From Mycobacterium sp. (lineage in GTDB: Bacteria; Actinomycetota; Actinomycetes; Mycobacteriales; Mycobacteriaceae): a stretch of DNA of 13,047 bases. Of this stretch, positions 1 through 13,047 are shown one piece after another. The position numbers and the translations under genes are program-made. Below the pieces are notes generated by a model. The model ran no database searches, was not told the origin of the DNA, and saw nothing but the letters and a program-made list of their open reading frames with translations. Location: positions 1 to 13,047 of the forward strand of contig JAOPWF010000144.1 in assembly GCA_025965815.1 (NCBI GenBank), given 5' to 3'. The stretch's first letter is position 1, and every line of letters starts with the position of its first letter.

Positions 1-278
1 AACGCCGCGGAGAAATACAGCATCGTGTCACCGAGCTGGGTGTGCGTATGCAACAACGGCGATCGACCGGACCGCTTCTCCAGCCATTCGCCCGCATCGG
101 TCGTCAGCGGCGTCAGGAGCGCGGTGACCGCGGCTAGCGCGAGCACCAGCCATACCAGCCGCTGACGTGCCGCTGGCCATAGCGCGCAGACGGTCGCGAG
201 AATCGCGGTCAGCGGGGCCAGGACCACGATGAAATGCACAAGCAGAACGTGGGCGGGGAGCCCGTTGAACGTCGACAA
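1..278 (-). CDS. DUF2231-type membrane protein, partial (C-terminus outside window)
   Basis: About 92 N-terminal codons are visible; the gene runs off the left edge. The TTG start at 278 is chosen because AGGAG lies six bases upstream and the resulting N-terminus (FNGLPAHVLLVHF) matches the usual start of DUF2231 membrane proteins. Two hydrophobic stretches are visible, about residues 11-34 and 41-58. A loop follows with DAGEWLEKR and a His-rich segment HTHTQLGD (residues 77-84), where another membrane segment begins. His10, His15, Glu64, His77 and His79 lie near membrane borders, an arrangement that could bind metal or heme, but that is inference. The function of the family is not established. 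It lies 54 bases downstream of the ferredoxin gene, on the same strand, with its own ribosome binding site, so it may be the last gene of the redox operon. Confidence 0.75.
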   Translation of the reverse strand, partial: MSTFNGLPAHVLLVHFIVVLAPLTAILATVCALWPAARQRLVWLVLALAAVTALLTPLTTDAGEWLEKRSGRSPLLHTHTQLGDTMLYFSAA

Positions 279-332
279 TTGTCGCTCCTCGAACGATAGC
301 GGGGATGCAGCTAAGACCGAACCAACTACCAC

Positions 333-608
333 CTACTGAAAAGTTACTGCCTCTCTGTCCCTCGAGGCGCGTCCGGTCGCGTCCGTGACCAGCGAGAGGG
401 CGAGGCGGGGGCATCGGTCGACGGCATTACGTGCGTCTGACTGTGTCGACGGGGGTATGCGCGGTTCGCGGGAACCGTCACGGGTGACGGGATATCCCCA
501 GTCGTCGCGGGTGAGCAGGCGCGGCAGCAGCTCGGTGCACAGCCCGCGGCCATCGCATCGCGTCCAATCGATGTGTAGGCGCGACGGCAGTGCGGGTGTT
601 GCTTTCAC
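333..608 (-). CDS. Small ferredoxin, probably [3Fe-4S] type
   Basis: A 91-residue soluble protein of the short actinobacterial ferredoxin family, which carries single electrons in the cytosol. The visible ligands are Cys18 and Cys24 in CDGRGLC and Cys66 in a CP motif (DRCPRLAL). There are no other cysteines, so a three-ligand [3Fe-4S] cluster is expected, as in ferredoxins that serve cytochromes P450. The middle segment LLTRDDWGYPV is the usual linker of this family. The GTG start at 608 overlaps the TGA of the upstream NuoF-like gene as GTGA, so the two are probably translationally coupled. Context suggests it accepts electrons from the NuoF-like protein and passes them on, perhaps to the membrane cytochrome. 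The tail after residue 76 is short, charged and unremarkable. Confidence 0.88.
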   Translation of the reverse strand: MKATPALPSRLHIDWTRCDGRGLCTELLPRLLTRDDWGYPVTRDGSREPRIPPSTQSDARNAVDRCPRLALSLVTDATGRASRDREAVTFQ

Positions 609-1879
609 GTCAGTCTCGCGTCGCGGCGGAGGTCGTAGTGTGCAGCGCCGCGAGCCGTGATCAGCAGGGCGTCGCAGCGGCCGTGGCAGTGGTGAGCGAT
701 GTCGGTGGCGAACACGTCGAGTGCACTGCGGATCAGGCGCGCAGTTCCGTCGGGGTGGCGACACGAGCCGCGGCCGTCGATGAGATCTAGCATCCGGTGT
801 ATCTCGCCGAGGAGAGGGTCATCGACTCGGCTGTAGGCAAGCTCGTCGAGCAGCTGGGCCAGTCGCGGGAGGCCGTTGAGGCACGGGCCGCATTGGCCGG
901 CGCTTTCGTCGGCGAGGTAGGCGGCGATGTCTGCGGTGCGTGCGAGTCCGCACTCGTGGACGCCGAGTGCATGGATGACGCCGGCGCCCGGACTCGCCCC
1001 GACCCGCGTAAGGGAGGCCCGACAGAGCCGACTGCCGGTGAACCTGGCCGCGGGGATCCAATTGCCGTGGTAGCCGCCAACCAGGACTGCGCGCAGTGCG
1101 CGGGGGTTGGTGGCACCGTTGAGTCCGATCAGGTCCGTTAGCAGAGTTCCGGTCGGCACCTCGGCGACGCTGGGTTTGTTCATCGCACCCGACAGGGTGA
1201 CGAGCATGGTGCCGGGTTCGGCCTGGTCGCCGATTGAACGGAACCAGCGCGGGCCATATCGGGCGATCAACGCGATATGGGCGAGTGTTTCGACATTGTT
1301 GACCAGTGTGGGTCGTCCCCGCACCCCGGATATCGTGGTGAGGACGGTGCGGTCGCGGGGCAGCGCCGGGCCGCCTTCGATCCGCCTGACGACCGCCGAT
1401 TCTTCCCCGGCGACGAAGGTGTCGGGAGCCTCGACGACGGTGACCGGGCGCCGAACCCAGCCCGCCGTGTGACGCTCGTCGAGGGCATCTTTGACCGTCG
1501 GGACGGCGCGCGATGGGACATAAATGAACACCTTGTCGGCCCCTACCGCGTCCGCCGCGAGGCAGAGTCCGTCGAGAATCAGGTGCGGGGCGCGGGCGAG
1601 CAGGACCGCATCCTTGTGGCTCAGGGGTTCGCCTTCGGCGCCGTTGCCGATGACGACCGATTTATTCCCGGTTATTGACGCGATTTTGCGGGCGGCGGAA
1701 AAGCCGGCGCCTCCCCGCCCGGTCAGTCCGGCCTGCTCGAGCGATGTCATCAACGTTTGTCCGTCGGGTTCGGGCAGGGCGCCGAACCGGCGCTGATGTT
1801 GGGTCAAGGTCGGGCCGTCGGCGCTGAACAAGCGATGGGCGGTCGGCGCATGCGGGGCGGCGTGTCTCGGCGTGATCAT
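605..1879 (-). CDS. NuoF-like NADH dehydrogenase (FMN / SLBB / Fe-S domains)
   Basis: A 424-residue protein related to subunit F of complex I, the NADH-oxidising flavoprotein. GRGGAGF (54-60) is the nucleotide/FMN glycine loop. NGAEGEP (79-85), GEESAVVRRIEGG (158-170) and PTLVNNVETLA (190-200) are hallmark NuoF segments. An SLBB domain follows at about 225-275, and a helical Fe-S domain at about 315-390. The Fe-S motif reads SAGQCGPC with Cys330 and Cys333, and Cys373 follows 40 residues later. The family pattern S-C-G-x-C-x-x-C has one more Cys, replaced here by Ala327. Two extra cysteines (398, 402) sit in HHCHGRC near the C-terminus. The ATG at 1879 overlaps the upstream stop as ATGA. There are no partner NuoE or NuoG genes, so it is a stand-alone diaphorase, probably feeding the ferredoxin encoded next. 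Confidence 0.9.
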   Translation of the reverse strand: MITPRHAAPHAPTAHRLFSADGPTLTQHQRRFGALPEPDGQTLMTSLEQAGLTGRGGAGFSAARKIASITGNKSVVIGNGAEGEPLSHKDAVLLARAPHLILDGLCLAADAVGADKVFIYVPSRAVPTVKDALDERHTAGWVRRPVTVVEAPDTFVAGEESAVVRRIEGGPALPRDRTVLTTISGVRGRPTLVNNVETLAHIALIARYGPRWFRSIGDQAEPGTMLVTLSGAMNKPSVAEVPTGTLLTDLIGLNGATNPRALRAVLVGGYHGNWIPAARFTGSRLCRASLTRVGASPGAGVIHALGVHECGLARTADIAAYLADESAGQCGPCLNGLPRLAQLLDELAYSRVDDPLLGEIHRMLDLIDGRGSCRHPDGTARLIRSALDVFATDIAHHCHGRCDALLITARGAAHYDLRRDARLT

Positions 1880-2436
1880 CGCCGCACCGGAATGCGGACG
1901 TCGCGGTATTCGGTGTAGCCGGCGCGCAGCCGCCACGTGAGTGCGGCGGCCACGGTCAGCGCGCAGGACCCGGCGAACAGCAGGAACCACCAGCGGGTCA
2001 CGCCCGTGCCGTTCCCGAGGGCGTGGGCGAAAGCGATCGGCCACAACGCGTAAGTGGCCCCGTGCACGATCCGAAAAACCCGCACCCCAATCCGATGACG
2101 AAGAACGCTGGTAACAATCACAGCGGCGAGCAGATCGAACGCGAGAGTCCCCAACCCCAGCCACAGGGATCGGTAGGCGCCGAGGAACGGCACGACCCAG
2201 TCGACGAGCCGCAACTGGGCGTAGGGGTCGGCGAGCAGCGTCACCACATGCAACATCACCAGCACAACCCCGGCCAGCGCGGCGAAGCGATGGACATCCG
2301 CGACGGCGAACCTCGGCAGCGACAACATCGGGCGACCCGACCGCGTTGCGATCCCCAACGCGAGCGACAGTGTCAGAAAGGCGAGCGCCGTGATCCCGGT
2401 ACCGCGGCCCAACGCCCACAAGGCCTCGTCAGTCAC
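1876..2436 (-). CDS. Ferric-reductase-like diheme transmembrane protein
   Basis: A 186-residue integral membrane protein of the ferric reductase-like domain family (related to MsrQ, FRE and NOX membrane cores). About five or six hydrophobic segments are visible, roughly at 14-32, 50-68, 78-90, 92-112, 124-142 and 148-168. Two histidine pairs stand out: His49/His63 (spacing 14) and His125/His138 (spacing 13), fitting bis-His ligation of two b hemes across the membrane. It has no FAD/NAD domain of its own, unlike eukaryotic ferric reductases, so electrons must come from a partner. The NuoF-like protein or the ferredoxin encoded downstream are obvious candidates. The GTG at 2436 overlaps the apbE stop (GTGA) and fixes the start. 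The electron acceptor outside is unknown. Confidence 0.88.
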   Translation of the reverse strand: MTDEALWALGRGTGITALAFLTLSLALGIATRSGRPMLSLPRFAVADVHRFAALAGVVLVMLHVVTLLADPYAQLRLVDWVVPFLGAYRSLWLGLGTLAFDLLAAVIVTSVLRHRIGVRVFRIVHGATYALWPIAFAHALGNGTGVTRWWFLLFAGSCALTVAAALTWRLRAGYTEYRDVRIPVRR

Positions 2437-3386
2437 CGATGCCTGCCCGGGTCTGAGGCGGGCCAGCCGCCAACGGTGTAAACCACGCGGTCGCTGTCCA
2501 CCAATCGTGCCGGAACGCCAAGGGTCCGTAACCAATTGAGGGCCCGACGTCCGCGGATGATGGCGGCTGTACTGATGGTGTTGGCATCGACACAGGTGCC
2601 TGCGGCGACGGTCACGGTTCGCCATACCGGGTCAGCCGCCAGGCCCGAACGCGGGTCGAGAATGTGGTGCACGAGATCGCCGCCCTTTCGCCATCGCCGG
2701 TGAACGGTGCTCGACGTGGCCAGTCCCGCCCCAGCCGGCATCGCGACCGAACATGCGGGATCCTCGGCGCTGTCGCGGACCAGCACCTGCCAGCCGCCCT
2801 CGGGTGCAGGCCCGGCGGTCGCGATGTCCCCGCCCAGGTTGACCAGCACCCCGCTCCCGGTCGCGTCGACGACGCGGCGTGCGCAGCGATCGGCGGCGAG
2901 TGCTTTCGCCGTGGCACCGAGATCGAGCAGAACCCCGGCGGGGACGGTGAGCGTACGACCGTCGAGGGTGATCATCGACCACGTCGCCGGCACCGTGATG
3001 GACGAAGCCATCAGCGGAGCCTCGTCAAGCTCGGAGAAGTCGCGATCGTATCCGAGGGCAACCACCGCGGCGCCGATCGTAGGGTCCACATCACCACCGG
3101 TGCGGCGCGCTGCCGTCAGAGCAACGCCGATCATCTCCGCAAGCAAGTCACTCACCACGGTCGGCTGCCCCGCCGATCGCGCGAGCGCACACACCTCCGA
3201 ATCGGACCGAAAGCGTGACGCCGCAGCCTCCACAGCATCCAGTTCGGCCTCAACTTCCGCGCGCGCGACGCCCGACGAGCGGGGATCGGTGACCACGACC
3301 TCCATGCTCGTGCTCCACCGCGCCCATTCGATCGCCGCGGTCGCCGGGGCAGTGGCGCCGGACTCGACAGCGGCCGCGATGCTCAC
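2433..3386 (-). CDS. apbE: FAD:protein FMN transferase (ApbE family)
   Basis: A 317-residue ApbE-family enzyme, which uses FAD to attach FMN to a Thr or Ser of a target protein. Family landmarks in order are SRFRSDSEVCAL (58-69), DVDPTIGAAV (99-108), LLDLGATAKALAAD (153-166), VLVNLGGDIATAG (180-192), VHHILDPRSG (239-248, Mg-site and active-site loop) and CVDANTISTAA (265-275, the second acidic metal-site segment). No Sec signal peptide or lipobox is visible, unlike many periplasmic ApbE proteins, so it may act in the cytosol. The GTG at 3386 overlaps the TGA of the upstream gene, which supports this start. The operon contains no recognisable FMN-binding domain protein, the usual target, so its substrate is open. 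Confidence 0.92.
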   Translation of the reverse strand: MSIAAAVESGATAPATAAIEWARWSTSMEVVVTDPRSSGVARAEVEAELDAVEAAASRFRSDSEVCALARSAGQPTVVSDLLAEMIGVALTAARRTGGDVDPTIGAAVVALGYDRDFSELDEAPLMASSITVPATWSMITLDGRTLTVPAGVLLDLGATAKALAADRCARRVVDATGSGVLVNLGGDIATAGPAPEGGWQVLVRDSAEDPACSVAMPAGAGLATSSTVHRRWRKGGDLVHHILDPRSGLAADPVWRTVTVAAGTCVDANTISTAAIIRGRRALNWLRTLGVPARLVDSDRVVYTVGGWPASDPGRHR

Positions 3387-3724
3387 GAGCCGCGGGACCT
3401 TGTGTGAGACGAGCCCGATCCCGGCATCAGCCCAGGGGAATAGTTCGGAGCCATCGACGTCGTCGGTGTTAGGGGCGAGTGCCGCTGGACAGTCGAGCTG
3501 GGGCCGGCGACGGCGGGCGCCGGTGCCGTAAGCGTAGCGGGGGGCGAGCCCTGCTCACCGGTGCCGCCGGCGCTGGTGACGTCGAGAGTGGCGTCCGTCG
3601 ATTGCTCCTTGACAGTGTCGGCGTAGGCGAGGGCGGAGGCACCCGCGACACCGGCGATGCCGATACCGACCAGCGCCCACGATGCGGCGGCTGCGCGGCG
3701 GAATCCCGCACTCGGTGAGTCCAT
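3383..3724 (-). CDS. Short membrane-anchored Ala/Pro/Ser/Thr-rich protein, first gene of redox operon
   Basis: A 113-residue protein not recognised as a named family. Arg9-Arg10 precede one hydrophobic segment (about 12-35, Ala/Gly-rich, ending ASALAYAD), so it is either a signal peptide or a membrane anchor with the tail outside. The rest is low complexity: Thr/Ser/Gly-rich to residue 60, then Pro/Ser/Thr-rich. The C-terminus is basic (HTRSRGS). In comparable ferric reductase-ApbE clusters this position is often held by a small FMN-binding protein. Here no FMN-binding domain is present; only loosely motif-like stretches (STDAT 42-46, SAGGTG 51-56) occur. The ATG at 3724 is preferred for its position before the hydrophobic segment. 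No clear ribosome binding site precedes it. Its stop overlaps the apbE start. Confidence 0.65.
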   Translation of the reverse strand: MDSPSAGFRRAAAASWALVGIGIAGVAGASALAYADTVKEQSTDATLDVTSAGGTGEQGSPPATLTAPAPAVAGPSSTVQRHSPLTPTTSMAPNYSPGLMPGSGSSHTRSRGS

Positions 3725-3745: not shown

Positions 3746-3767
3746 TTTCTTAGAGCGTTCGAAGAAA
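3746..3767. promoter_or_regulatory. Near-palindrome in the divergent intergenic gap, candidate operator
   Basis: The arms TTTCTT (3746-3751) and AAGAAA (3762-3767) are exact reverse complements, and several of the ten central bases are also symmetric (GA.CG.TC). It lies in the 42-base gap between the redox operon and the response regulator gene, and abuts the proposed regulator start at 3767. It would suit a dimeric regulator, possibly the adjacent OmpR-type protein, controlling both directions. OmpR-type boxes are more often direct repeats, so this assignment is an inference. Confidence 0.4.
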
Positions 3768-4465
3768 TGGCGTGGCACGCTCGTTGGGTGGCCCATCGTG
3801 ACGCGGCAGCGACATTGCTGCTTGTCGAAGATGACCGTGTGCTCAGCGCGATGCTGACCGAACTGTTTACCGGCGAGGGATATGTCGTCGATGTTGCCTT
3901 CGACGGTCAGCAGGGATTGCACCTCGGTCTTACTGGGAGCTACGACGCCGCGGTCATCGATCGTGGTCTGCCGGTGATGGACGGTTCCGAACTTGTCGTT
4001 CTGCTGCGGTCGAAGGGGGTGACTACCCCGGTGCTGCTCCTTACTGCGCGAGGGTCCGTGGCCGATCGCGTCGACGGCCTCGATGCCGGGGCCCAGGACT
4101 ACTTGGTGAAACCGTTCGAGGTGCCTGAACTTCTCGCCCGGGTGCGGTCGCTGGTCCGCCGGCCCGGTGGCGGTTCAGCTCTGCGGGTGGGCGGGTTGTG
4201 CTTGAACCGGATGACCCGCACCGTCGGTGGCACTGCGTTGGGGGGTGAGCAGGTGGAGCTGTCTGAGCGGGAAGCCGCTTTGCTGGCCGTTCTGATGAGC
4301 GCGCCGCGACGGGTCTTCACTCGCGGCCAGTTGCTCGCCTCGGCGTTCGGCGGTGCCGACTCAGCGGGTGCGGTGGACACCTACGTGCACTACCTGCGTC
4401 GCAAGCTCGGCAGGGACATTGTGCGGACGATCCATGGAACCGGCTACCGTCTTGGACTCGAATGA
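3767..4465 (+). CDS. OmpR/PhoB-family response regulator
   Basis: A 232-residue two-component response regulator. The receiver domain (about 16-130) has the acidic pocket EDD (21-23), the phospho-acceptor Asp65 in VIDRGLPVMDG, the switch Thr93 in LLTARG and the conserved Lys115 in LVKPF. A winged-helix DNA-binding domain follows (about 137-231), ending in the typical IHGTGYRLG. The start is uncertain. ATG at 3767 gives about 15 residues before the LLLVEDD strand, longer than usual, and has no convincing ribosome binding site. GTG at 3788 and TTG at 3815 are alternatives in the same frame. Its stop overlaps the histidine kinase start as ATGA. It is divergent from the redox operon at 42 bases, so that operon is its most likely target along with its own gene. 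Confidence 0.93.
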   Translation: MAWHARWVAHRDAAATLLLVEDDRVLSAMLTELFTGEGYVVDVAFDGQQGLHLGLTGSYDAAVIDRGLPVMDGSELVVLLRSKGVTTPVLLLTARGSVADRVDGLDAGAQDYLVKPFEVPELLARVRSLVRRPGGGSALRVGGLCLNRMTRTVGGTALGGEQVELSEREAALLAVLMSAPRRVFTRGQLLASAFGGADSAGAVDTYVHYLRRKLGRDIVRTIHGTGYRLGLE

Positions 4466-5718
4466 CGCCTCGCCCTCCGGCAAGTGATATCGCCGCGGTT
4501 CATCGGGCCGGCAGAGCAGCCGCGGTGCAGGCCTCCGTTGCACTGGCCGCGGTGCTGCTCGTGGTGGGCGCGGTAATTTTCGCTGTCGACGTGCACGTGC
4601 AAAATCAGCAGATCACCGCGCAACTGGTCTCGGTGACATCCACCGCCGACGACGTCACCGATCCGCCGCCGGGGATGGTTCTGGCGCTGCGCGATAAAGC
4701 GGGCAATGTGTCGGTCGGCGCGCACCCGTCGATGACCACTCACATGCTCGGGGGGCCCACTGGATTCTCCGATGTCCGCGTCGGAGATCAGCATTACCGC
4801 GCCCTGGTGGCAGACAACAGCCACGGCCGCGTCGTCGCGCTCCTCGACCTCCAGCCCTATGAAACCGGCCGGAGCCGCCTGCTGGTATCCCTAGGGGCTG
4901 CTGAGCTGGCCGGCATCCTGGCTTCGATCGCGGTGGTCGTCTCGCTGACGCGCCGATCGATCCGGCCACTGTCTCAGGCGTTGGCCCTGCAACGTCAGTT
5001 CGTCGCCGACGCGTCCCACGAACTCCGGGCACCCCTGACCGTGCTGAATACTCGCGCGCAACTCATCGCTCGCCGTTTCGATCATGGCGACGCACACGAG
5101 GCTAAAAACCACATCGACGCCCTGATCTCCGACACCCGGACACTCGGCGATGTCATCGACGACCTGCTCGCCTCGGCGTCAATGGCCACAGACACTGCAC
5201 CAATCGATCGGATCGAGGTGTCTGCTCTCGCCCATGCGGTTCGCGAGACCATGTCCGAGCACGCCCAAACTGCAGGCGTGACGCTTAAGGCCGAACGGGA
5301 TAAGGGCAGGGCTGCAACGGATTTCGTGGTCCTCGGCTCGGCGGCGGCGCTGCGCCGAGCCATCACTTCGCTCGTGGATAATGCCCTGTCCCACGAACAC
5401 TCAGGTGGAACGATCACGATCAGAGTCGGCCGCCGCTCCGGCACCGTTGTCGTGGACGTGCGGGACGACGGAGTGGGAGTCGATCCCGCCGCGGTGGCAA
5501 CACTGTTCACACGTTTCTCGCACGGCGACCACCACACCGCCACGGCAGGTCGACGACGCTACGGTATCGGCCTCGCCCTGGTTCGCGAGATCGCCCACGC
5601 CCACCACGGCGATATTCAGGTATCGCAGACACCTGGCGGCGGAGCGACGTTCACACTCACCATCCCCGCCGCGCACCCACTAGGCCCTCATGATCCGGGT
5701 GGCCACACCCGTCCTTGA
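4462..5718 (+). CDS. Membrane sensor histidine kinase
   Basis: A 418-residue sensor kinase, the cognate partner of the overlapping response regulator. There is a first membrane segment at about 23-43, an extracytoplasmic loop of about 100 residues (44-138) with no recognised domain, and a second membrane segment at about 141-162. The dimerisation/H-box follows with FVADASHELRAPLTVL and phospho-His186. The ATPase core has an N-box around Asn307 (SLVDNALSHE), G1 box RDDGVGVD (334-341) and G2 box YGIGLAL (367-373). A full HAMP domain is not obvious; only a short basic linker (TRRSIRP) separates the membrane from the H-box. The sensory loop has no cysteine and only scattered His residues, so no ligand can be read from it. 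The tail after residue 402 is His/Pro/Gly-rich. Confidence 0.93.
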   Translation: MTPRPPASDIAAVHRAGRAAAVQASVALAAVLLVVGAVIFAVDVHVQNQQITAQLVSVTSTADDVTDPPPGMVLALRDKAGNVSVGAHPSMTTHMLGGPTGFSDVRVGDQHYRALVADNSHGRVVALLDLQPYETGRSRLLVSLGAAELAGILASIAVVVSLTRRSIRPLSQALALQRQFVADASHELRAPLTVLNTRAQLIARRFDHGDAHEAKNHIDALISDTRTLGDVIDDLLASASMATDTAPIDRIEVSALAHAVRETMSEHAQTAGVTLKAERDKGRAATDFVVLGSAAALRRAITSLVDNALSHEHSGGTITIRVGRRSGTVVVDVRDDGVGVDPAAVATLFTRFSHGDHHTATAGRRRYGIGLALVREIAHAHHGDIQVSQTPGGGATFTLTIPAAHPLGPHDPGGHTRP

Positions 5719-7142: not shown

Positions 7143-8243
7143 GTGCCCAGTGCCTTGGTCGCGGCGTTGGCCGCGCCGATCCGCGAGGTGCAGGCGATGG
7201 TCGGTCCCGGATGGTCCGCGGACCCCACCGCCGATCCGGCGGGGGTGTTGGGCGGTGTGCGCGACGCGCTTGCCGACGTGTCCGCGGCTTCCATCAGGGC
7301 ATGGATTGTGACCGGCGAACACTGGTCGGGCGCGGGAGCCGATGGCGCGGCCGATTTCGTGGCGTCCACCGCCGCCGCCGCGGACGAGTTGGCTATGCGC
7401 GCCGACGCGCTGGGCGCGAGCACCGAGACCGCGGCGGCGGCGGTGGCGCGGGCCAGCACGCAGTTGCGGTCCATCGTGGAGCGTTTCGAGGCCCGCGCGG
7501 CCGCACTGGAGCCGCACCTGGACTCCCCCGGCACCGCGGAAGAACTCCTGCACGAGGCCCAACGAGCCCTCACCGAGGCCATCGGCGTGGTCGACGAGCT
7601 GAGGGCGGAACTCGACGGACAGGCGGGCGCGCTGACAGGTCCGACGACACCGGCCCCGCCCATGCCGACCGTGCCATCCGGGTTCGCCCCGACGCCCGCG
7701 ATGGGGTCGGGCCTTGGCGGCGCCGCGCCGATGAGCCCCGTCCCGGCCCCCGGCGGAATGCTCGGGTCCGGCTCGGGGCTCGGCGACGTCGCGGCGTTCT
7801 CGACCCCCGAGGCGACCGTGCCGCTGATGGACCCCGCCACCTTCGGTGACGGCGTGGCCGTCCGGCTGCCCGACGGCAGCACCGTCATGGCACCGAACGC
7901 GGTGGCCGCCAGCGCCGTTCGCCACGCGCTGACCCAGTTGGGGGTGCCCTACGTGTGGGGCGGCACCACACCCGGTGTCGGCCTGGACTGCAGCGGCCTC
8001 ACCCAATGGGCCTATCACGAGGCCGGGTTGAACATTCCGCGGCTGGCCCAGGAACAGGATGTCGGCGTGCCGGTCGACCGCGGCTCGCTGCTGCCCGGCG
8101 ACCTCGCGGTGTGGGACGGCCACGTCGCGATGATCGTCGGCAACGGCACGATGGTCGAAGCCGGCGACCCGGTGCAGCTGTCGCCGGTGCGCACCACCAA
8201 TATCGGGCAGGGCTTCCATGGGTTCTACCGTCCCACGGCATGA
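7143..8243 (+). CDS. NlpC/P60 cell-wall peptidase with helical WXG-like N-terminus
   Basis: A 366-residue protein. The N-terminal half (about 1-160) is Ala-rich and helical with a WSG turn (GEHWSGAGADGA, 58-69), like the WXG-bearing N-termini of mycobacterial T7SS-associated proteins (DUF4226-like). A Pro/Gly/Ser-rich linker spans about 165-220. The C-terminal NlpC/P60 domain (about 253-364) has PYVWGG (269-274), catalytic Cys283 in LDCSGLTQWAY, His327 in WDGHVAMIVG and Glu339 as likely third residue. Such domains cut D-Glu/mDAP bonds in peptidoglycan. There is no Sec signal peptide, so export through an ESX system is the likely route. The GTG start at 7143 follows the preceding stop by 2 bases; no strong ribosome binding site is seen. 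The overall plan recalls M. tuberculosis Rv0024-type P60 proteins. Confidence 0.88.
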   Translation: MPSALVAALAAPIREVQAMVGPGWSADPTADPAGVLGGVRDALADVSAASIRAWIVTGEHWSGAGADGAADFVASTAAAADELAMRADALGASTETAAAAVARASTQLRSIVERFEARAAALEPHLDSPGTAEELLHEAQRALTEAIGVVDELRAELDGQAGALTGPTTPAPPMPTVPSGFAPTPAMGSGLGGAAPMSPVPAPGGMLGSGSGLGDVAAFSTPEATVPLMDPATFGDGVAVRLPDGSTVMAPNAVAASAVRHALTQLGVPYVWGGTTPGVGLDCSGLTQWAYHEAGLNIPRLAQEQDVGVPVDRGSLLPGDLAVWDGHVAMIVGNGTMVEAGDPVQLSPVRTTNIGQGFHGFYRPTA

Positions 8244-8754: not shown

Positions 8755-10080
8755 ATGGCTGCTGAGATCGTGCCGATTCGGCTCGGATTGACCAAGGGTG
8801 ACCTGTACACATTGTGGGCGCCGCGCTGGCGTGATGCCGGCGACGAGTGGGAGGCGTTCCTGGGCAAGGACGAGGATCTCTACGCGTTCGAGTCGGTCGC
8901 TGACCTGGTCACCTTTGTCCGCACCGACACCGATAACGACCTGACCGACCATCCGGCATGGGAAGCGCTCACCGAGGCGTCGGCGCATCGGCTGGACCCC
9001 CCGGACGACCGGCAGTACGACCTCATCGGGGTTCAGGAACTGGCTGCCGAGAAGCCGACCGAAGAATCGGTGAACACCCTGCACCGCACGTTGGCGATCG
9101 TCTCGGCCATCGGCTCGGTGTGCGAGCTGCCCGCCGTGACCAAGTTCTTCAACGGCAATCCCATGCTCGGGTCGCTGGGCGGCGGCGCCGAGACGTTCAG
9201 CGGCCGCACCGGCAACAAGCGCTGGCTGGAGATCGAGGCATTGATCGCCAAGAGCTGGGACAACATCGTCGACGCCATCGACGAGATCGTCAGCACCCCC
9301 GATGTGGACGCCGGGGTGTCGGAAAAGGTCCAGGCCGAACTGCTCGAGCCCCCGGAGGACGAGACCGACGAGGCCGACACTGAGGAGACCGACGAGGCGG
9401 CGACCGGCCGGCACGGACGGCACGAGGCGGCCAGCCGAGACGAACGCGACGACGACGCCGAAGACGAAGCCGAAGCCGACGAAGAAGACGACGAACTCGT
9501 CGCTCGGGCCGGCGGGCTCGTTCTGGGCACTGACGAGGACTTCTGGGCCAAGGTCGGCATCGATCCGGTCCGGATGATGACGGGCGCCGGCACCTTTTAC
9601 ACGCTGCGCTGCTATCTCGACAACGCGCCGATTTTTCTGGGTCGAAACGGCCGCATCAGCGTGTTCAGTTCCGAGCGTGCGCTGGCCCGGTACCTGGCCG
9701 ACGAGCACGACCATGACCTGTCCGACCTGAGCACCTACGACGACATCCGGACCGCCGCCACCGACGGTTCCCTCGAGATCGACATCACCGAGGACAACGT
9801 CTACGTGCTGACCGGGCTGTCCGACGACATCGCCGACGGGCCGGACGCGGTGGACCGCGACCAGCTCGAGCTGGCCGTCGAACTGCTGCGCGACGTCGGC
9901 GAATACTCCGAGGACGACACCGTCGAAAAGGCACTTAACGAGCGACGTCCGCTGGGCCGACTGGTCGGCTACGTGCTGGAATCCGGCTCGGTCGCCAGTC
10001 CCGCCGCGCCGTATGCCGCGGCCGCCGAGCAGTGGTCCGATCTGGAGCAGTTCGTCGAGTCGCGACTGCGCCGCGAGTAG
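8755..10080 (+). CDS. Rv3311-like conserved hypothetical protein, acidic, with internal duplication
   Basis: A 441-residue soluble acidic protein recognised as the homologue of M. tuberculosis Rv3311 by sequence feel and by its position before add-deoA. No catalytic motif is visible. A disordered, very acidic stretch (about 198-248, runs of Glu/Asp with a short GRHGRHEA break) links two halves. The first half (14-75: KGDLYTLWAP, FLGKDEDLYAFESVADLV, TDNDLTD) and the second (277-335: GAGTFYTLRC, FLGRNGRISVFSSERALARY, HDHDLSD) share the same order of motifs, suggesting a duplicated module. A helical region (95-190) and a C-terminal helix (370-440) complete it. The ATG at 8755 is set by the leaderless promoter. 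The gene converges on the VOC gene with a 2-base gap. The role is unknown. Confidence 0.9.
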   Translation: MAAEIVPIRLGLTKGDLYTLWAPRWRDAGDEWEAFLGKDEDLYAFESVADLVTFVRTDTDNDLTDHPAWEALTEASAHRLDPPDDRQYDLIGVQELAAEKPTEESVNTLHRTLAIVSAIGSVCELPAVTKFFNGNPMLGSLGGGAETFSGRTGNKRWLEIEALIAKSWDNIVDAIDEIVSTPDVDAGVSEKVQAELLEPPEDETDEADTEETDEAATGRHGRHEAASRDERDDDAEDEAEADEEDDELVARAGGLVLGTDEDFWAKVGIDPVRMMTGAGTFYTLRCYLDNAPIFLGRNGRISVFSSERALARYLADEHDHDLSDLSTYDDIRTAATDGSLEIDITEDNVYVLTGLSDDIADGPDAVDRDQLELAVELLRDVGEYSEDDTVEKALNERRPLGRLVGYVLESGSVASPAAPYAAAAEQWSDLEQFVESRLRRE

Positions 10081-11525: not shown

Positions 11526-12614
11526 TTACCCGATCAGCACCGCGAACCGCGGCTTGATCACCTCGTCGATCAACGCCAACCGCTCGTCGAAATGGATGAA
11601 CGCCGACTTCATCGCGTTGATGGTGAAGCGCTCCAGGTCGCTCCAGCCGTAGCCGAACGCGTCCACGAGTCGCAGCATCTCCTGGCTCATGGTGGTGTCG
11701 CTCATCAACCGGTTGTCGGTGTTGACGGTGACCCGGAATCGAAGGCGCGCCAGCATGTCGAACGGATGCTCGGCAATGCTCTTGACAGCACCGGTCTGCA
11801 CATTGGAACTGGGACACATCTCGAACGGAATGCGCTTGTCGCGCAGCAGCGCTGCCAGCCTGCCGAGGTGCGCGGTTCCGTCCGGGGCGAACTCAATGTC
11901 GTCGGCGATACGCACGCCGTGGCCCAGCCGGTCGGCGCCGCAGAACGCGATCGCCTCATGGATGGACGGCAGGCCGAACGCTTCACCGGCGTGAATCGTG
12001 AAGCGGGCGTTGTTGCTTCGCATGTACTCGAACGCGTCCAGGTGCCGGGTGGGCGGATAGCCCGCCTCGGCACCGGCGATGTCGAAGCCGACCACACCCT
12101 TGTCGCGGAACCGGATGGCCAGCTCGGCGATCTCCCGGGACCGTGCGGCGTGCCGCATCGCGGTCACCAGACAGCGCACCTTGATGGTGCGTCCCCCGCT
12201 CGCCGCCGCCTTCTCACCGTCGGCGAACCCGGCGAGTACCGCGTCGACCACCTCGTCGAGCGACAGTCCCCGGTCGATGTGCAGTTCGGGGGCGAAGCGC
12301 ACCTCGGCGTAGACGACCGAGTCGGCGGCCAGATCCTCCGCGCACTCGAACGCGACCCGGTGCAGTGCCTCCGGCGTCTGCATCACCCCGACGGTGTGGG
12401 CGAACGGCTCCAGGTAGCGCACCAGGGAGCCGCTGTGCGCCGCGGTGCGAAACCAGGTCGCCAGCGTGTCCGCACCGGTGGCGGGGAGGTCCTCATAGCC
12501 GGTGTCTTCGGCCAACTCCAGCACGGTGGCCGGCCGCAGCCCGCCGTCGAGGTGGTCGTGCAGCAGCGCCTTGGGTGCCCGCGTGATCGTGTCCAGGCCC
12601 AGTGGTGTGGTCAT
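11526..12614 (-). CDS. add: Adenosine deaminase
   Basis: A 362-residue enzyme converting (deoxy)adenosine to (deoxy)inosine in purine salvage, of usual length for bacterial ADA. The Zn ligands are His19 and His21 (LLHDHLDGG), His208 (HAGE, with catalytic Glu211) and Asp300 ([10 protein letters not shown]). The catalytic His232 lies in [18 protein letters not shown] (267-275) and [11 protein letters not shown] (330-340) are further family segments. NTDN in place of the common NTDD is the form seen in actinobacterial ADA. The ATG at 12614 overlaps the deoA stop as ATGA, so add is translated coupled to deoA as in M. tuberculosis Rv3314c-Rv3313c. Both supply free bases and sugars from nucleosides. 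Confidence 0.97.
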
Positions 12615-13047
12615 GACACGATCCGATCGATGATCAACGGGCGCTCCGGTGGCGCCGAGTCGCCGACGCTCCACCCGCCGTCCAGCTCGGCCATGGCGGA
12701 TCCGAATCGCTCGGCAGTGTCGGTGTACAGAGTGAACAGCGGCTCACCGGCCGCGACCGGTTCACCGGGGCGCCGATGGATGCGCACGCCGGAGCCGAAC
12801 TGCACCCGCTGACCCGGCACCGAGCGGCCCGCGCCGAGCCGCCATACCGTCAGTCCCACCGCCATTGCGTCGATATCGCCCATCGTGCCACTGCGCGGGG
12901 CGGTGACGGTCTCGGTGTGTGCACCGAGCGGCAGCGGCACCGACAGGTCGCCGCCCTGCACCGCCACCAGCTCGCGGAACCGGTCCATCGCCGTCCCGTC
13001 GCGCAGCGTGTCCGCCGGGTCGCGGGCATCCACACCGGCGGCGCCGA
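12611..13047 (-). CDS. deoA: Thymidine phosphorylase, C-terminal part (N-terminus outside window)
   Basis: The last 145 or so residues of a pyrimidine-nucleoside phosphorylase, which splits thymidine to thymine and deoxyribose-1-phosphate. The fragment starts in the last part of the catalytic domain ([21 protein letters not shown]). It then shows the C-terminal lipoyl-like domain: [41 protein letters not shown] and [13 protein letters not shown] are classic segments of this family in correct order. The active-site residues lie outside the window. Its stop is within the add start (ATGA). No internal stop or frameshift is seen. Confidence 0.95.

Follow-up and report, generated by a model that had tools for sequence, protein, structure and literature searches.

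A domainless small protein as the probable ApbE substrate and flavin carrier of a redox operon in Mycobacterium and other Actinomycetota

A five-gene redox operon with a predicted flavin carrier

The stretch of DNA analysed here, referred to as the window, is the entire 13-kb contig JAOPWF010000144.1 (13,047 nucleotides) of the genome of an apparently environmental Mycobacterium sp. (G000; 5.66 Mb in 877 contigs, rated ~81% complete), and it carries a compact operon encoding a small membrane protein, an ApbE-family FAD:protein FMN transferase (FMN, flavin mononucleotide; FAD, flavin adenine dinucleotide), a ferric-reductase-like membrane protein (FRD), a NuoF-like diaphorase for reduced nicotinamide adenine dinucleotide (NADH), and a ferredoxin. 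Judging from its sequence and that of its relatives, we consider it probable that this operon specifies a one-way transmembrane electron line in which the outer carrier is a domainless flavoprotein, the small protein with FMN attached to its terminal serine. With a little less confidence, we favor the broader proposal that, throughout the Actinomycetota, the usual partner of ApbE and FRD belongs to a new class of ApbE substrates that bear a natural C-terminal flavin tag, in which a cytosolic ApbE would esterify FMN to the terminal serine and the floppy protein would then be exported, perhaps through the twin-arginine translocation (Tat) pathway, to serve as a swinging or even released arm without a folded flavin domain.

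The five genes lie on the minus strand within positions 333 to 3724, and consecutive neighbors share 4-base overlaps (3383-3386, 2433-2436, 1876-1879, and 605-608). Both this arrangement and the identities that an earlier note on this DNA had assigned to the last four genes are borne out by the coordinates and by Pfam matches. The fixed stoichiometry that the note drew from the overlaps does not follow from them, since such overlaps indicate translational coupling. The features of the operon are as follows.

3383..3724, minus strand: small protein, 113 aa, with an Arg-containing start, one hydrophobic helix, and a Ser/Thr/Pro/Ala-rich tail; no Pfam match; proposed FMN carrier
3383..3406, minus strand: codons of the C-terminal heptapeptide HTRSRGS and stop; conserved end, with the last Ser as proposed FMN acceptor
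2433..3386, minus strand: ApbE-family FAD:protein FMN transferase, 317 aa; Pfam ApbE (PF02424), 2.9e-47; no hydrophobic N-terminus
1876..2436, minus strand: FRD, ferric-reductase-like membrane protein, 186 aa; Ferric_reduct (PF01794), 5.9e-9, above cut-off; four invariant His, predicted to bind two b hemes
605..1879, minus strand: NuoF-like NADH diaphorase, 424 aa; Complex1_51K, 2.1e-30, and NADH_4Fe-4S (PF10589), 1.5e-14
333..608, minus strand: single-cluster ferredoxin, 91 aa; Fer4_15, 4.3e-12

The small protein ends in a conserved C-terminal peptide

No Pfam domain was found in the small protein, either in a domain search of the window proteins or among its 108 database relatives (itself included), which their sources, where they give a name, call hypothetical protein or TonB. 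The last two residues are Gly-Ser in 99 and Gly-Thr in 5 of these relatives (together 104 of 108), and the remaining four are short or differ over the whole end. Among the 104, position -2 is Gly in all, position -3 is Arg (68) or His (36), and position -4 is Ser (102) or Ala (2). Interchange of Ser and Thr at the terminal position is what one would predict of a residue that accepts FMN through its hydroxyl group. A reading of the small protein as a truncated version of an FMN_bind protein was rejected in view of the conserved tail end and the lack of a Pfam domain in all 108 relatives.

Counterparts of the small protein share a common build, consisting of an Arg-rich start, an N-terminal hydrophobic helix, and a Ser/Thr/Pro/Ala linker that leads to an extreme C-terminus of the form [S/T]-x-[G/A]-S in most cases, with nothing after it. 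Homologues from the genus have ends such as HVTVSRGS and ITRSRGS, and other families encoded upstream of apbE combine the same build with an unrelated linker and end in HASSGGS, DASSGAS, DAGTGGS, AHVGSGGS, or AHTGSGAS. The frequency of this end was counted on upstream open reading frames (ORFs) chosen, in all sets of loci, by helix, charge, and composition only, blind to the motif; the end pattern had been in use on the genus and order loci before the phylum loci were fetched, and the phylum loci had been viewed before the motif-blind choice was made. Out of 92 loci, 19 were set aside (17 without apbE beside the FRD gene, and L070 and L081, which are cut by contig ends). Eight of the resulting 73 (L031, L076, L080, L082, L086, L174, L178, and L181) have no ORF that passes the helix and linker filter; in L076 (TGGT), L174 (SSNGS), and L181 (SRSS), such ORFs can be recognized by eye, and these were left out of the counts. 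An upstream ORF was thus obtained from 65 loci, corresponding to 6/7 in the genus, 26/30 in the order, and 33/36 in the rest of the phylum.

The pattern [ST]x[GAS][ST] forms the exact end of 50 of these 65 ORFs (6 in the genus, 24 in the order, and 20 of the 33 in the phylum), lies no more than six residues from the end in 5 more, and is absent at or near the end in 10, and the C-terminal residue is Ser in 57. The same pattern matches 266 of 3380 four-letter internal stretches of the same tails and 15 of 1026 other gene ends, the latter being gene calls made by a simple codon-usage script in the fetched loci and not a proteome. An internal match rate of 7.9%, against 77% at the end, led us to reject the view that the end pattern is a mere product of a Ser/Gly-rich linker. 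In two exceptions (L101 and L102), a small gene ending in VATSGGS sits downstream of the ferredoxin gene instead, and five small proteins (L170, L171, L180, L183, and L187) end in Ser without the pattern. A scan of named genomes, with a single window protein as the query, provided 25 loci with FRD relatives (49-77% identity) from Mycobacterium/Mycolicibacterium (19), Rhodococcus (2), Williamsia (2), Nocardia (1), and an uncultured actinobacterium (1). The upstream ORF ends in GS in 21 of the 25, including SGGS in one Mycobacterium and HAQTSGS in both Williamsia; the four loci without this end are L200 (cut by a contig end), L211, L221, and L223.

Two variants of the build were observed along the way. 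The small proteins encoded upstream of apbE in L162, L164, L166, and L168 end in a loop between two cysteines, as in CYTSPSGNVTCY, which is possibly another kind of tail. A basic, beta-like stretch, for instance VVVRRIIERRVV, follows the helix in L174, L194, and L198 and is perhaps an FRD-binding strand.

ApbE and its candidate substrate

The minimal target of ApbE has been reported to consist of seven residues, D-x-x-[S/T]-G-A-[S/T], with FMN on the last residue; loss of the Asp has a minor effect, changes at the Gly or Ala, even Gly to Ala, cut flavinylation to about 50%, Thr is preferred to Ser at the acceptor position, and tags perform best when placed terminally (PMC12052999). On sequence, the tails of the small proteins appear to resemble this tag, with a good fit in many relatives and a weaker one in mycobacteria. 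The tail of L075, DASSGAS, is an exact fit, whereas HTRSRGS in the window has His at the Asp position, Arg at the Gly position, and Gly at the Ala position, and most relatives fit in part. The operon ApbEs retain a His (H241 in the window) before the DPRSG stretch in 24/24 aligned sequences, matching the conserved ApbE His for which a catalytic role is known (PMC12052999). No hydrophobic N-terminus was detected in any of 65 operon ApbEs, that of the window included, with a Kyte-Doolittle window, which is not a signal-peptide predictor. The start of apbE overlaps the stop of the small gene by 1-4 bases in 47/65 loci (the ORFs of L101 and L102 being doubtful).

Other ApbE targets were sought both within the operon and elsewhere in the genomes. 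The operon contains no FMN_bind domain (PF04205), and this domain was not found in 22/22 genus genomes, a set that includes the only ~81% complete genome of the window, or in 4 of 10 other order genomes searched. Likewise, DUF2271, DUF3570, and NqrB/RnfD (PF03116) were not found in 16/16 apbE-bearing genomes (12 from the genus and 4 from the order), and the control genomes gave matches. Over the aligned stretches, an ApbE motif is not conserved in FRD (26 sequences), in the NuoF-like protein (26), or in ApbE itself (24): [ST]G[AG][ST] occurs in 0 FRD, 4 NuoF-like, and 3 ApbE rows, with at most 2 at one column. At one locus (L082), the place of the small gene is taken by a gene for a protein with an N-terminal hydrophobic stretch (by eye), a Pro-rich linker, and an FMN_bind domain (VSGAT), and the same genome holds a second copy of the operon (L083) with a small protein ending in SSGGS. 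This replacement is the best single hint that both proteins do the same job. The small protein is therefore probably the substrate of ApbE and a flavin carrier that had been overlooked: the earlier note had stated that no FMN-binding subunit was present, which holds for an FMN_bind domain and is probably wrong for the operon as a whole. With the small protein as probable ApbE substrate, the system looks complete.

Recurrence of the gene set in the Actinomycetota

ApbE, FRD, the NuoF-like protein, and the ferredoxin recur together in the Actinomycetota far beyond chance. FRD was found in 12/98 genus genomes and 64/150 order genomes (E up to 1e-5), and 74/396 phylum genomes match an FRD profile (E up to 1e-10). 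Forty loci were then chosen by hand from the FRD matches in the order and another forty, outside the order, from the longer list of phylum profile matches; the four genes lie on one strand in 29/40 of the former, in 12/40 of the latter, and in 18/25 of the named loci, and apbE stands beside the FRD gene in 36/40 phylum loci. All five genes are present in each of the 12 FRD-bearing genus genomes, six of which have them in one block, five in two blocks, and one with the small gene separate, so that the rare co-occurrence which the earlier note had named as grounds for abandoning its proposal is not what other genomes present. In the five split genomes, the genes for the small protein, FRD, and NuoF-like protein are at one locus, and apbE lies elsewhere, followed by a ferredoxin gene that was recognized by eye. 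In the remaining genome (G093), the operon lacks the small gene, an intact copy of which, 89% identical to its G053 counterpart, is found on another contig. Split and relocated copies retain the whole set, and a mere chance neighborhood of these genes was rejected on this ground. At the operon of G093 (L031, 7250-7420), the start of a small gene is apparently fused in frame to apbE.

The small protein itself was matched at E up to 0.01 in 12/60 genus genomes, 10 of which are good matches in FRD-bearing genomes. The apbE gene is present in 12/12 genus genomes with the system and in 0/10 controls, hand-picked among the genus genomes without an FRD match. In one family of FRDs (f15; L092-L094 and L097), long charged C-terminal extensions ending in VDGAYWAGLRGEAK or similar were considered as fusions bearing the tail, and this reading was rejected; the FRD gene is next to NuoF-like and ferredoxin genes in these loci, and the lack of apbE in the fetched stretch suggests a related but different system. 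The FRD genes of L096 and L041 adjoin those of apparent FAD/NAD oxidoreductases (by eye).

Redox components, topology, and proposed mechanism

Four histidines of the FRD (H49, H63, H125, and H138) are invariant in 26/26 aligned sequences. In this superfamily, a four-His pattern is known for two b hemes, and the designation of this protein as a diheme cytochrome in the earlier note fits the alignment. The membrane part of FRD also gives a weak profile match (E 0.0035 to 0.0045) to PDB entries 8qta, 8qt6, and 8qq7, annotated as an FAD-binding FR-type domain protein and presumably a bacterial NADPH oxidase; in contrast to these, the FRD of the window is not fused to an FAD/NAD domain, and a separate NuoF-like donor is encoded. 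The NuoF-like protein shares an FMN/NADH fold and an iron-sulfur (Fe-S) region with the NuoF/51-kDa subunits, HydB, and NfnB, which it resembles. It differs from the NuoF of complex I in scoring 198 bits against a NuoF equivalog cut-off of 559, in having FRD as its partner, and in carrying Ala at the first Cys ligand of the Fe-S motif in 26/26 aligned sequences (the window and 25 relatives), suggesting that it may hold a three-Cys cluster; Cys-x-His-Pro-Asp-Gly is invariant around the last Cys. The bit score and the failure to find NqrB/RnfD in the 16 apbE-bearing genomes support, at the sequence level, the earlier proposal of an NADH-to-outside route unlike complex I, Rnf, or Nqr.

The small proteins carry more positive charge before the helix than after it in 64/65 cases, with one tie, and an N-in/C-out orientation is predicted from this charge distribution. 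Arg-Arg occurs no more than 15 residues before the helix in 56/65, so that Tat export of the small protein can be offered as a guess, and the tail is 28 to 161 residues long (median 74). In the proposed mechanism, NADH would reduce the NuoF-like protein, and electrons would pass from its Fe-S center to the ferredoxin, then across the membrane through the two FRD hemes, and on the outside reach the FMN that the small protein would bear as an ester on its last serine. This protein would be anchored, or exported, with its C-terminus outside, and its tail, presumably floppy, could act as a swinging arm towards an outside acceptor, for which iron, a quinone, or another protein are candidates. VIT1-type transporters follow two copies of the operon (L083 and L098) and a hemerythrin lies near one (L072), which hints at iron or oxygen as the acceptor, but no more. 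The apparent lack of an export signal on ApbE and the overlap of its gene with the small gene suggest that ApbE probably adds FMN in the cytosol, the tail being exported afterwards.

Alternative readings of the operon

Several observations weigh against the proposal that the small protein is a flavinylated outer carrier. The window end, HTRSRGS, is non-canonical, and all 104 intact homologues of the mycobacterial type have Arg or His at the position of the motif Gly. The 10 upstream ORFs without the pattern at or near their end, eight of which come from phylum loci that do not fit, and the small ORF of L086, which ends without the motif, add to this discrepancy. Three of the eight (L162, L164, and L166) terminate in a short Cys loop instead of a Ser tail, and L168, which has such a loop too, counts among the near matches only by the letter. 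Near the C-terminal DALxT, the operon ApbEs have Asn (Asn269; at least 90% of 24 aligned) where solved ApbEs have an Asp, which we take to be a Mg ligand. Two weak small-protein matches (E about 0.004, in frames with stops) fall in genus genomes without FRD. The absence of other ApbE targets covers four families, Flavodoxin_4 and FMN_red types not having been searched for. Lastly, a cytosolic ApbE and an outside tail would together require flavinylation to precede export.

Part of this evidence can be read as indicating that the small protein is not flavinylated at all, and that its C-terminal peptide is a tag for docking or recognition, directed at FRD, ApbE, or the cell wall, with ApbE modifying another protein or processing FAD/FMN. 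The departure of mycobacterial ends from the canonical motif, the 10 upstream ORFs that lack it, and the Asn at a conserved Asp of ApbE all favor this explanation, which we nonetheless judge unlikely, because the last residue is Ser or Thr only in 104/108 homologues, an FMN_bind protein is encoded in place of the small one in L082, and a different substrate has not come to light: the 22 genus genomes yielded no FMN_bind and the 16 apbE-bearing ones no DUF2271, DUF3570, or NqrB/RnfD, and the aligned FRD, NuoF-like, and ApbE proteins are devoid of a conserved motif. Were ApbE to serve an unrelated protein, the operon would amount to an independent NADH reductase lacking a flavin carrier, as the earlier note had envisaged. 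The lack of an FMN_bind domain in the operon is compatible with such an arrangement, which appears very improbable when apbE tracks the small and FRD genes across the genus even where they are unlinked, and when the four known families of ApbE targets were not found.

It is also conceivable that the tail is flavinylated and stays in the cytosol, where it would link the NuoF-like protein and ferredoxin with the inner heme as an electron relay, leaving FRD to pass them outside without a flavin. Such a route agrees with an ApbE that has no hydrophobic N-terminus in 65/65 loci and whose start overlaps the small-gene stop in 47/65. The positive charge that precedes the helix in 64/65 small proteins predicts the opposite orientation, however, the FMN_bind protein found instead in L082 also has an N-terminal hydrophobic stretch by eye, and long linkers of Ser/Thr/Pro are a usual feature of exported regions, making a cytosolic tail, in our opinion, distinctly unlikely. 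A flavinylated small protein with its C-terminus outside thus remains our preferred interpretation of the operon.

Relation to known flavinylation systems

The general plan of FRD, ApbE, and a NuoF-like donor is already known. NuoF-like genes have been published in 31 MsrQ-like/ApbE clusters, and VIT1 has been reported for 153 MsrQ-like clusters (Meheust et al., 2021; PMC8238504). Such clusters share with the operon an FRD/MsrQ-type heme membrane protein, a NuoF-like donor with PF10589, ApbE, and VIT1, here beside L083 and L098. The window differs from them in having, instead of FMN_bind, a small protein that has no domain but a motif at its C-terminus, in its ApbE without a hydrophobic N-terminus, and in including the ferredoxin as part of the set. 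The survey kept only genes with a signal peptide or lipidation site (PMC8238504), and this may be why the tail class went unseen. What appears new is the carrier: searches of the full-text literature, a coverage outside of which most subscription journals and preprints fall, turned up neither a domainless protein flavinylated at its C-terminus nor an account of this operon in mycobacteria.

Two precedents bear on the carrier. The engineered flavin-tag (Tong et al., 2021, as described in PMC12052999) is likewise a seven-residue peptide that suffices as an ApbE target and performs best at a terminus; it is man-made and follows the canonical D-x-x-[S/T]-G-A-[S/T], whereas the tails described here, such as HASSGGS and HTRSRGS, are natural. 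In flavinylated FMN_red proteins, the motif is likewise located on an unstructured C-terminal extension, which serves a folded flavin-binding domain (PMC11334425), in contrast to the small protein and its lack of a Pfam domain. Bacterial genomes that carry apbE without a recognized target are put at 17% and, once two new targets had been added, at 4%, or 670 genomes of the 2021 survey's set.

A simple flavin carrier of this kind seems to be common in actinobacteria. If the proposal is correct, a domainless tail would be a target invisible to domain searches and could explain target-less apbE genomes in the Actinomycetota; a covalent flavin would need no protein pocket to carry electrons, flavinylation could precede export, and the engineered flavin tag would have a natural counterpart. 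Environmental mycobacteria and their relatives would gain a testable NADH-driven route for electrons to the outside.

Genomic neighborhood of the operon

The operon neighborhood is wider than five genes, comprising a two-component pair and often a DUF2231 gene. The pair, a response regulator and a histidine kinase, adjoins the operon in 7/7 one-locus genus copies, the window included, and the DUF2231 gene does so in 5/7 (the window and four relatives). In the window, these neighbors are the following.

3..332, minus strand: DUF2231 membrane protein, truncated by the contig end, downstream of the ferredoxin
3767..4465, plus strand: OmpR-type response regulator, diverging upstream of the operon
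4462..5718, plus strand: histidine kinase, partner of the response regulator

The rest of the window includes an NlpC/P60 hydrolase with a long N-terminal part (7143-8243, plus strand), a 441-aa ORF with an Asp/Glu-rich middle and no Pfam match at 0.001 (8755-10080, plus strand), and, in a region of ordinary nucleoside salvage, an adenosine deaminase together with the C-terminal part of a pyrimidine nucleoside phosphorylase (11526-13033, minus strand).

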